From: Thiomicrospira sp. XS5
GTDB lineage: Bacteria; Pseudomonadota; Gammaproteobacteria; Thiomicrospirales; Thiomicrospiraceae
DNA: 64,000 nucleotides
Direction of reading: 5' to 3'
Assembly (NCBI RefSeq): GCF_001507555.1
Contig: NZ_LQBO01000001.1
Span: 2,108,001-2,172,000, forward strand
The notes below the pieces were generated by a model, which was not told the origin of the DNA, did no database searches, and worked only from the letters and a program-made list of their open reading frames with translations. Shown here piece by piece: positions 46,065-49,267 of the stretch; position 1 is the first letter of the stretch; each line of letters begins with the position of its first letter. The position numbers and the translations under genes are program-made.

Positions 46065-47060
46065 CTAACGATAAGCGGTGATTTCAGACCGCAAGGCCAA
46101 TTCCGCCGGGTAAGGATGAAAAAACACCTGCGTTTCCAGATAGTCGGAACCATAATGGCTCAAGAACTGTTGCAACACTTTAATCACCGCAATCAACGGA
46201 ACAATGCCGTTACGGAATTCTTCAACCGTTTCCCGATAATGCGTTTTCTCATCTTCCGTTAATTGCTTTTTGAAGTAGCCATACAGGTGATCCAATACAT
46301 TAATTACGCTGCCACGCTTGGAGCGGTGCGCCAATAACGCCTGTAATTTGGTTTCATATTCTTTCAGGCTGTCCGCCAGGGTGTCCTGATGAGTCTCCGC
46401 CACAATGGGCCCCATCTCTCGATAAATCGATTCCGATTTGGACAGCAGCAGATATTTATGGTCCCGGTGAAAGGCCTGAAAATCCGCCACCGTCGGCTCG
46501 CCCGCCAAAAACTCTCGCCACCGAGCGGCGGTAAACACCCGCATCATAAAATTCTCGCGCAACCAGGCATCCTGCAAACGGCCTTCCTCTTCCAAGGCCA
46601 GGCCGGGCGCTTGGCGTTGCAACATGGCCGTAAACATGCCCTGGCCCATTTTATCTTGTGACCCGAACCATTCCCCGCTCGGACGATAAATTTTGATCCG
46701 CTCCAAGCCGCACGTCGGTGAACGGGATTTCACCACGGCGCCATCAATTCCCTGTTGCAACAATTTCGGCACCATTTTGTCATTATAGCGTTGAATGCCC
46801 TCAGTCACATCTTGTTCGGTCCGTGTGCCGCGAACCCGAATATCGCCATCCACATTCACCAATCGAATGGTTTCACGCGGTGTCCCCAGTACAGGCGCCT
46901 CCGGGCAGAAAGGCAGAAAATCCGCATACTTCGCTAAATGATGATTAATAAAATCGTCCTGGGCATGGCCCCCATTATAACGACACTCCGTTCCACGCAA
47001 ACAATCGGAAACGGCAATCTTTAATCTCGGAAATTTTTCTTCGGCAGTGGATAACGGCAT
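46065..47060 (-). CDS. DUF523 and DUF1722 fusion protein (YbgA-like)
   Basis: The 331-residue protein joins an N-terminal DUF523 (VSDCLRGTECRYNGGHAQDD, CPEAPVLGTPRE, RSPTCGLERI) and a C-terminal DUF1722/YbgA domain (FHRDHKYLLLSKSESIYREMGPI). DUF523 holds conserved cysteines of unknown role. In gammaproteobacteria this fusion often sits with photolyase and B12-light-sensing LitR/CarH genes. Here neither is in the window, but the upstream region carries four TGTACA-like boxes. Function unproven. Confidence 0.88.
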   Translation of the reverse strand: MPLSTAEEKFPRLKIAVSDCLRGTECRYNGGHAQDDFINHHLAKYADFLPFCPEAPVLGTPRETIRLVNVDGDIRVRGTRTEQDVTEGIQRYNDKMVPKLLQQGIDGAVVKSRSPTCGLERIKIYRPSGEWFGSQDKMGQGMFTAMLQRQAPGLALEEEGRLQDAWLRENFMMRVFTAARWREFLAGEPTVADFQAFHRDHKYLLLSKSESIYREMGPIVAETHQDTLADSLKEYETKLQALLAHRSKRGSVINVLDHLYGYFKKQLTEDEKTHYRETVEEFRNGIVPLIAVIKVLQQFLSHYGSDYLETQVFFHPYPAELALRSEITAYR

Positions 47061-47110
47061 TATCAGCTCCTTACATCACTGGAAACGGCATTTTCACAAT
47101 CCAGCATTAT

Positions 47111-47149
47111 TTGTACAAAACATATACAATATTGTACAACCAATACAAT
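47111..47149. promoter_or_regulatory. Four tandem TGTACA-like boxes (possible LitR/CarH operator)
   Basis: TGTACA, TATACA, TGTACA and AATACA begin at 47112, 47123, 47133 and 47142, a spacing of 9-11 bases, just upstream of the DUF523/DUF1722 gene. CarH-type MerR light regulators are known to bind tandem 11-base direct repeats of this sort. No such regulator is encoded in the window. Confidence 0.55.
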
Positions 47150-47276
47150 TCCATTATACTCTTTTCTAACCAAGTAACACCTTTCCCGTATTCGGGAGCG
47201 CCCTAGCCGTTTACCTCTTACGGAAATACGTCTAAAATGGCGCAAGCCCTTATCCGGAACCAGTACAGGAACCCTT

Positions 47277-48395
47277 ATGGAATACAAAAACTACACCGCT
47301 TACCAACACGGTTCGGAACCCGCTGTCGGCGTTCTGATCACCAACCTGGGCACGCCCGACGCCCCCACCAAAGAAGCGCTGAAACCCTATTTGAAAGAAT
47401 TCCTGATGGATCCTCGCGTCGTGGAACCGCCACCGGCGCGCTGGTTATGGAAATTGATTCTGAACCTCATCATTCTCAACACCCGCCCGGCGAAATCGGC
47501 GGAAGCCTATGAAGAAGTTTGGGGACATTACGGCGAAGGCTCGCCTTTGCTCGACATCAGCAACCGCCAGTTGGCCGACATCGAAGAAAAGGTACGCGGC
47601 CATTTCAGCGGTCGCGTTGAATTTGCGCTGGGCATGCGTTACGGCAATCCGTCGATTGCCGATGCACTCAAGTCCTTGCAGGAACGCAATGTACAACGCC
47701 TGATTGTGTTACCGCTGTATCCACAATACGCCGGCGCCACCACCGCTTCCACCTTCGACGCCGTCACCGCCGAACTGCAAACCTGGCGCTGGATTCCGGA
47801 AATGCGCTTTGTGCGCAATTACCACAAACACCCCGGCTACATCAAAGCGCTGGCGAATAGCATCCGCGAACACCAGGAAAAACACGGCAAACCGGATTTA
47901 CTGGTGATGTCATACCACGGCATCCCCAAACGTTATTTCGATAACGGCGACCCTTACCCATGCGAATGCCGCGCCACCTCACGACTGGTGGCCGAAGAAC
48001 TCGGCATCGGCTCGGACGACTACATGGTCACCTTCCAGTCGCTATTCGGGAAAGAAGAGTGGGTCAAACCTTATACCGACGCTACTTTGAAAGGCCTACC
48101 GTCCAAAGGCGTCAAACACCTGCAAGTCATCTGCCCGGGCTTCTCCGCCGATTGTTTGGAAACCATCGAAGAAATCGACCAGGAAAACCGCGAGTATTTC
48201 GAAGAAGCCGGTGGCGAAACCTTCAGCTACATCCCGGCGTTGAACGACCGCGACGATCACACCAACGCGTTAATGGAAGTAATTTTGCAACAGACCAAAG
48301 GCTGGCCGGAAAGAGACGGTTTTGACGAAGCGGCCGCGCAGGCCGAACGGGAATTGCAAGCCAAGCTGGCGCGTGCGCAAGGCGCGAAGCATTAA
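47277..48395 (+). CDS. hemH: Ferrochelatase
   Basis: HemH inserts Fe(II) into protoporphyrin IX, the last step of haem synthesis. The 372-residue protein shows ITNLGTPDAP, the substrate region DPRVVEPPPARW, LPLYPQYAGATTAS, the catalytic SYHGIPKRY and the C-terminal CPGFSADCLETIEEI. It is divergent from the DUF523/DUF1722 gene across 216 bases that contain the tandem boxes, so both could respond to the same light- or B12-linked factor. The C-terminal 20 residues are Ala/Lys-rich. Confidence 0.97.
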   Translation: MEYKNYTAYQHGSEPAVGVLITNLGTPDAPTKEALKPYLKEFLMDPRVVEPPPARWLWKLILNLIILNTRPAKSAEAYEEVWGHYGEGSPLLDISNRQLADIEEKVRGHFSGRVEFALGMRYGNPSIADALKSLQERNVQRLIVLPLYPQYAGATTASTFDAVTAELQTWRWIPEMRFVRNYHKHPGYIKALANSIREHQEKHGKPDLLVMSYHGIPKRYFDNGDPYPCECRATSRLVAEELGIGSDDYMVTFQSLFGKEEWVKPYTDATLKGLPSKGVKHLQVICPGFSADCLETIEEIDQENREYFEEAGGETFSYIPALNDRDDHTNALMEVILQQTKGWPERDGFDEAAAQAERELQAKLARAQGAKH

Positions 48396-48440: not shown

Positions 48441-49148
48441 TTACGCTTTTTTCTGCCCAAGTGACACGGTCGAGCCCGTGGCATTCGGGCTGTCCATCAG
48501 AAAGCGCACCGCTTGCCAAATCGATGCCTCGCCCGGTTCCACCGGAATGGCGCTTTCCGCCAAACGCTTCTGGCGATACGCCCCGGAATCCTCAGGATGA
48601 AAAATCACCAGGCCTGGTGCAATGTTATTGACTTTAATGTGCGGCGCAAACGCCTGGGCAAACGATTGGGTCAAGGAAGCCAAGCCCGCCTTCGACGCCA
48701 GATAAGCCGCATAGTCGGCATGGCCGTCCGCCACTTTCACATCCGTCAGCGCCACAATATCCGCCGTGGCCGCGGACGTTGCTTCCAGTAACGGGCGGCA
48801 GGCCTGGTTGATTCGATACGGCGCTTCCACATGCACCGCCAGCAAATCGGCCAGCAAGCCCGGCTGAACATCCACCTGTGCATCGGTCGCCCAAAGCGAC
48901 GCATTGTGAATCACCGCGCGCAAGCTCGCGACCTGCTGCGGCAAACATTGTAAGAAGGTGTTCAAAGAAGCGGAATCGGTGAAATCCACTTGAAACCCCA
49001 AAGCGCCCTGCGCTTTCAGCTCATCCACCGCCGGGCGTTCGGTGCGATATGTAAAGACCACCGCCTGGCCTTGCGCCAAAAATTGTTTCGCCAGATACAA
49101 GCCGATGCGCTGCCCGGCTCCGGTAATCAAAACGGCGTCTTTTAGCAT
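48441..49148 (-). CDS. folM: SDR-family reductase, dihydromonapterin reductase FolM-like
   Basis: The 235-residue SDR carries the NADP motif ITGAGQRIG, HNASLW in place of NNAG, the catalytic YxxxK as YLASKAGL, and VNNIAPGLVIF. These details, especially GAGQRIG and HNAS, are those of FolM, which reduces dihydromonapterin and weakly dihydrofolate. It lies next to the arsenic island but on the same strand as arsJ, which ends 120 bases upstream. folE2, another pterin gene, is 9 kb away. It contains one exact and one near CCAGGCCTGG copy. Pteridine reductase is an alternative label. Confidence 0.75.
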   Translation of the reverse strand: MLKDAVLITGAGQRIGLYLAKQFLAQGQAVVFTYRTERPAVDELKAQGALGFQVDFTDSASLNTFLQCLPQQVASLRAVIHNASLWATDAQVDVQPGLLADLLAVHVEAPYRINQACRPLLEATSAATADIVALTDVKVADGHADYAAYLASKAGLASLTQSFAQAFAPHIKVNNIAPGLVIFHPEDSGAYRQKRLAESAIPVEPGEASIWQAVRFLMDSPNATGSTVSLGQKKA

Positions 49149-49267
49149 GGCAGTCAATGCGACAACTCCTTATTTCCAGGCCATTTTCCAGCCAAGGCCG
49201 TTTAAGCATTTTCGCCAGGCCTGGGCAAAGTTCATATTGCCCTATTCTAACGACTTTATGCGCCCTT

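Follow-up and report, generated by a model that had tools for sequence, protein, structure and literature searches.

The window, by which we mean the whole 64-kb stretch of DNA analyzed here (G000:C1:2108001-2172000), comes from a genome that was placed in the genus Hydrogenovibrio; among the relatives placed there are Hydrogenovibrio halophilus and Hydrogenovibrio sp. SC-1. As the first-pass annotation had described, a DUF523/DUF1722 gene and hemH diverge from a shared intergenic region, and Pfam matches (PF04463, PF08349, and PF00762) confirmed both gene calls. The features of this region, in window coordinates, are as follows.

46065 to 47060, minus strand: rudS, encoding a tRNA 4-thiouridine desulfidase (TudS/DUF523 plus DUF1722; PF04463 and PF08349); the primary inferred target
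47112 to 47117, no strand assigned: candidate LitR box 1, TGTACA, nearest rudS; fits TnnACA; relatives also have boxes upstream of rudS
47123 to 47128, plus strand: candidate LitR box 2, TATACA (TGTATA on the minus strand), read from the sequence
47133 to 47138, no strand assigned: candidate LitR box 3, TGTACA; overlaps the −35 element of a possible distal hemH promoter
47142 to 47147, plus strand: degenerate box 4, AATACA, a degenerate half-site that fails TnnACA
47132 to 47160, plus strand: possible distal hemH promoter, TTGTAC-N17-TATACT, from a promoter scan; overlaps boxes 3 and 4
47210 to 47238, plus strand: likely main hemH promoter, TTTACC-N17-TAAAAT, from the same type of scan; box-free and downstream of the boxes
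47277 to 48395, plus strand: hemH, encoding ferrochelatase (PF00762, 380 bits), divergent from rudS; a possible second target

The product of the DUF523/DUF1722 gene had been called an unknown protein, a description that is now outdated: fusions of these two domains are RudS enzymes, which strip 4-thiouridine (s4U) from tRNA (PMC11417400). Like RudS of Pseudomonas putida KT2440 (RudS_KT), the window protein is a TudS-DUF1722 fusion, and relative to the catalytic set of that study it retains all three cluster cysteines (C20, C52, and C117), the glutamate (E54), the arginine (R62), and the first serine (S114). The second catalytic serine, Ser113 of RudS_KT, is a threonine (T116) in the window protein, which otherwise has all the features of the RudS family. 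The gene also differs in its setting, since here it lies outside the litR operon, in a divergent pair with hemH. That DUF523/DUF1722 genes belong to LitR-type regulons agrees with the same study (PMC11417400), whose authors point to such genes in light-responsive operons, light induction itself being only suggested.

The box cluster

The boxes start at intervals of 11, 10, and 9 bp. CarH operators are defined as tandem 11-bp repeats of the form nnnnTnnACAn (PMC9304148); boxes 1 to 3 match the CarH repeat TnnACA, and box 4 is weak. The site is thus approximately a CarH-type operator, with three boxes at 11 and 10 bp and one degenerate box. The first-pass annotation had counted four LitR/CarH-like boxes at 9- to 11-base intervals, of which the intervals and three boxes hold, while the fourth does not qualify as a full box. 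No fourth full box was found at the corresponding sites of the relatives.

Because TGTACA occurs at chance frequency in the window (9 copies versus 8.05 expected, hence no enrichment), single boxes are uninformative. Unlike these chance hexamers, the cluster is real. Outside the rudS-hemH gap, no 32-bp stretch of the window holds three of TGTACA, TGTATA, or TATACA. In simulations, such a three-box cluster turned up in 1 of 300 order-2 sequences of 64 kb and in 4 of 20,000 intergenic sequences matched in composition.

A matrix was trained on 11 promoter sites of phrB/litR operons from relatives, leaving out the source genome, its near-identical relative, and all rudS-hemH regions; the window and selected loci were scanned with this matrix, and the whole genome was searched with strict patterns. 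The matrix placed positions 47109 to 47131 first in the window (14.9 versus 7.8 for the runner-up), and the score of the rudS-hemH site was attained in 5 of 5,000 order-1 simulated intergenic sequences. Single 64-kb order-1 simulations gave matrix scores of up to 17.8. Because some random 64-kb sequences attain such scores, a two-box matrix score alone is no proof, and it is conservation that carries weight.

The strict pattern TGTAYA-N(3-6)-TGTAYA had ten strand-wise matches in the 2.6-Mb genome, two of them at the window site (boxes 1 and 2, C1:2155112-2155128) and two at the head of the litR operon. Four other matches (C1:1027146, 1854614, 2072282, and 2080371) were considered as light-regulon sites and rejected. 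Their neighbors encode PAS/chemotaxis-type, unknown large, amidohydrolase-like, and amidase-like proteins, with no sign of a light regulon, and some of the four are palindromes with other spacing.

LitR and LOV in the source genome

The first-pass annotation had proposed a search of the genome for a LitR/CarH gene, and one was found directly after phrB. Two MerR genes exceeded the Pfam cut-off, and just one of them is LitR-like. The second (C1:2444 kb, 128 aa) was rejected as a LitR gene: it is short and lies beside a small open reading frame resembling a DNA-binding protein and a pheT-like gene. The two genes of interest are as follows.

C1:212 kb, on the same contig as the boxes and about 1.94 Mb from them, directly after phrB: litR, encoding a 286-aa LitR/CarH-type MerR protein (PF13411, 67 bits)
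C1:212 kb, beside litR and convergent to it: a gene for a short LOV photoreceptor, a 150-aa PAS/LOV protein with the motif YQDCRFLQG

LitR has the MerR helix-turn-helix (HTH) and the C-terminal helical-bundle/Rossmann module of the LitR/CarH family. The AlphaFold model of its H. halophilus orthologue (pLDDT 91) consists of a MerR winged HTH (wHTH), a four-helix bundle, and a Rossmann-like domain, and matches the Thermus CarH structures 5c8e, 5c8f, and 5c8d with E values of 1e-12 to 1e-10. The LOV protein has the LOV core and the photoactive cysteine and has no effector domain, as expected of short LOV proteins. In the PDB, it most closely matches short bacterial LOV proteins, 3sw1 among them, and it scored 168 bits against a solved short bacterial LOV protein that shares YQDCRFLQ.

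The apparent operon reads, in order, an FAD amine-oxidase-like gene, a DUF1365-like gene (assigned from its translation and without an NCBIfam match), a cfa-like gene, phrB, and litR, and its head is divergent to an SDR gene. Boxes of the same kind at litR and phr had been named as support for the idea, and they are indeed present at the head of this phrB-litR operon: TGTACA, TGTATA, TATACA, and TATACA at 11, 10, and 12 bp, the first three keeping the 11-plus-10 register of the rudS-hemH site. A weaker pair, TTGTATAAGTTTTGCATAAG (L004:9081-9103), lies between phrB and litR within a possible litR promoter and could possibly serve litR autoregulation.

The regulator had been expected to depend on B12. 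If so, the boxes would bind a B12-dependent CarH/LitR that sits on DNA in the dark as an adenosylcobalamin (AdoCbl) tetramer until light cleaves the Co-C bond. Tandem 11-bp TnnACA repeats are the operator geometry of B12 CarH (PMC9304148), 11-bp spacing is also used by 12 of the 17 B12-motif LitR loci, and the H. halophilus orthologue is predicted to fold like CarH. However, neither a B12-binding Pfam domain nor the W-x-EH and axial-His motifs were found in the source genome's LitR, which therefore falls outside the CarH/B12-type class, and there is no other LitR-like gene in the genome. The genome's sole B12-binding match is in a 1258-aa frame, presumably MetH.

A wider comparison led to the same result. 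Only 2 of 16 LitR proteins scanned had Pfam B12 domains; by motif, the B12-type proteins are the distant ones of G030 and G036. Among 80 LitR loci (L136-L215), 60 have a LOV gene nearby and all of these lack W-x-EH, 17 have the motif and all of these lack LOV, and 3 have neither. LOV-linked and B12-type LitRs are thus mutually exclusive among the 80 loci, a comparison that gives a simple rule for separating the two types by sequence and neighborhood. We consider a B12-dependent regulator at the boxes very unlikely. The source LitR, which is B12-free and has a short LOV protein encoded nearby, shares these two traits with the class II LitRs.

Conservation across relatives

Across 38 genomes, LitR (>100 bits) and the short LOV protein (>200 bits) are confined to the same 13, where their genes are neighbors. 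Of the 12 other LitR+ genomes of the family, 10 had box pairs spaced at 11 bp, either at operon heads or at the promoter of litR itself, and the remaining two (G013 and G019) had 10-bp and 22-bp pairs. Among the relatives searched for TGTAYA-N5-TGTAYA, the eight with LitR had 4, 2, 3, 4, 3, 2, 4, and 1 matches versus 0, 0, 1, 0, 0, and 0 in the six without (P = 0.0007, with kinship ignored).

Within the genus, rudS, LitR, and LOV occur together in seven genomes, and in each of these rudS and hemH diverge with boxes between them (one box is degenerate in G010); in all three with rudS and without LitR, the boxes and the adjoining hemH are both absent. In three LitR+ genomes of other genera (G013, G019, and G020), rudS lies elsewhere and no boxes were found at it; because it is box-free there, rudS is not an obligate LitR target. 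In three Thiomicrorhabdus/Thiomicrospira records (L140, L142, and L143), phrB, litR, LOV (minus strand), rudS (minus strand), and hemH (plus strand) lie side by side in that order, and boxes again separate rudS from hemH. Because the box-bearing rudS-hemH pair adjoins phrB-litR-LOV in those records, we infer that the pair in the window is probably a fragment of the light module that was relocated away from litR.

The boxes might instead serve another TGTACA-binding regulator or be a product of chance in AT-rich DNA. Consistent with this, TGTACA itself is no more frequent in the window than expected, and other palindromic TGTACA pairs (N3/N6) occur in genomes with and without LitR. But the boxes co-occur with LitR, are kept across seven genomes, recur at litR's own operon, and are rare in simulations, so we regard this explanation as extremely unlikely.

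Additional box clusters lie downstream of hemH in Thiomicrorhabdus (L142:12699-12724 and L140:13759 and 16530), ahead of a hydrolase-like gene and close to a lipocalin-like one, and these likely mark further members of the regulon.

A candidate light switch for rudS and possibly hemH

Our preferred reading, to which we assign a probability of roughly 0.85, is that the boxes are the operator of a LOV-coupled, B12-independent LitR repressor that would hold rudS repressed in the dark and be countered by LOV in blue light. It draws on what was observed here, namely, that the boxes exist, recur at the litR operon, are conserved, and co-occur with LitR and LOV, together with the identities of the genes. 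PmlR2, a class II LitR of Pseudomonas mendocina, acts as a repressor in darkness and is displaced by PmSB-LOV once the latter is illuminated (PMC9758184); a mechanism like this one is our best guess, by analogy, for the rudS-hemH boxes.

In the dark, LitR would bind the tandem, approximately 11-bp boxes upstream of rudS and repress it, as in Pseudomonas. In blue light, the short LOV protein whose gene adjoins litR would form its cysteinyl-FMN adduct, and the activated LOV protein, again by analogy with Pseudomonas, would bind LitR and take it off the DNA. rudS would then be expressed, as would phrB, cfa, and the other genes of the photo-damage operon, which shares the operator, and RudS would clear near-UV-absorbing 4-thiouridine from tRNA. 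As a prediction from the genomes, LitR-LOV control of rudS is well supported. Speaking against it, the spacing between the boxes and the rudS start is variable among the genomes, and no strong sigma-70 site over the boxes in the rudS direction was evident in the promoter scan.

LitR-LOV control of hemH appears plausible from the arrangement of the region. The alternative is that LitR-LOV governs rudS only and that hemH is constitutive, a passive neighbor. The gene is the only ferrochelatase copy in the genome and is needed for heme, and the box-free, promoter-like TTTACC-N17-TAAAAT just upstream of it is conserved in the source genome, G002, and G010. In favor of control, the boxes of four relatives keep a near-constant distance of 64 to 68 bp from the hemH start, whereas their distance from the rudS start varies from about 25 to 150 bp, and the possible distal promoter overlaps box 3 (TTGTAC-N17-TATACT is also in G002 and is absent from the other relatives, and so occurs in two genomes). 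In Paenalcaligenes hominis (L206:8930-11520), phrB and hemH, separated by 38 bp, form one apparent operon behind an 18-bp pair, TGTACA-N12-TGTATA, and a LOV-type litR and a short LOV gene adjoin. In addition, Shewanella hemH2 is in a photo-oxidative regulon with ybgA-phrB-cfa (PMC4336711). On balance, we give the passive-neighbor explanation slightly better than even odds. Were hemH to respond, it might be derepressed from the distal promoter on top of basal expression from the box-free one, which would drain photosensitizing protoporphyrin.

The Pseudomonas operator consensus is T(G/A)TACA-N12-TGTA(C/T)A, an 18-bp spacing (PMC9758184). The window site has the same boxes but a spacing of 11 bp, not 18, and does not conform to it. 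Among Pseudomonas-type LitR loci, 9 of 18 have 18-bp and none has 11-bp spacing; among Thiomicrospira-type LOV loci, 15 of 28 have 11-bp and none has 18-bp spacing. Because the Thiomicrospira-type LOV loci and the B12-motif loci both use 11 bp, this clade joins a LOV-type LitR to the CarH operator geometry. In the LitR tree, the Thiomicrospira-type and Pseudomonas class II LitRs fall into separate supported clades, a topology compatible with one B12-free group or with more than one.

The Pseudomonas class II systems (PmlR2-PmSB-LOV and P. putida PplR) otherwise have much in common with the one described here: a MerR HTH protein without a working B12 site, a nearby short LOV protein with YQDCRFLQ, T(G/A)TACA-type boxes, and a regulon of phrB, SDR, FAD oxidoreductase, cfa/ufaM, and litR genes. 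Besides the spacing (18 bp [N12] there versus about 11 bp here), they differ in overall protein sequence (about 25 to 28% identity), and here the divergent rudS-hemH pair is a separate target. AdoCbl-dependent CarH (Thermus, Bacillus, and Myxococcus) shares the wHTH, the four-helix bundle, the Rossmann-like domain, and the tandem 11-bp TnnACA repeats, but here the B12 motifs are absent, there is a LOV partner, and the associated genes are for photo-damage instead of carotenoids. The RpoE2-ChrR regulon of Shewanella oneidensis likewise includes a ybgA-phrB-cfa operon and a hemH paralogue (PMC4336711), but under an extracytoplasmic function (ECF) sigma/anti-sigma pair instead of LitR-LOV.

The LOV-LitR switch is known from Pseudomonas, and the 11-bp tandem operator and the rudS-hemH target are what is different here. 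The preferred reading would extend this switch to chemolithoautotrophic sulfur oxidizers with a second operator geometry, and would place rudS under a concrete operator distant from litR; should hemH be a target as well, light sensing would be tied to the removal of the cell's own photosensitizer. A broader proposal is that ferrochelatase is a true LOV-LitR target, with blue light inducing the last heme step together with s4U removal and DNA repair and clearing the photosensitizers protoporphyrin and thiouridine, and that this clade evolved its LOV-LitR coupling with an 11-bp operator like that of CarH, perhaps separately from Pseudomonas. We consider this combination doubtful.

Three minor observations concern other genes. 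The gene convergent to hemH is folM, encoding dihydromonapterin reductase (window positions 48441 to 49157, 290 bits); the matrix scan found no box at its promoter in the window, and folM is light-induced in P. mendocina. In H. halophilus, a second cryptochrome/photolyase-family gene is preceded, at a distance of about 100 bp, by TGTATAATTATTGTACA (L132, about 2014 to 2030; G005:C1:728514-728530). In the relative G006, an 11-bp pair, TGTACAATAAATGTATA, immediately precedes an ovoA-type gene (5-histidylcysteine sulfoxide synthase, 682 bits; L134, about 2049 to 2065; G006:C1:962049-962065), and ovothiol synthesis could possibly be light-induced in that organism.
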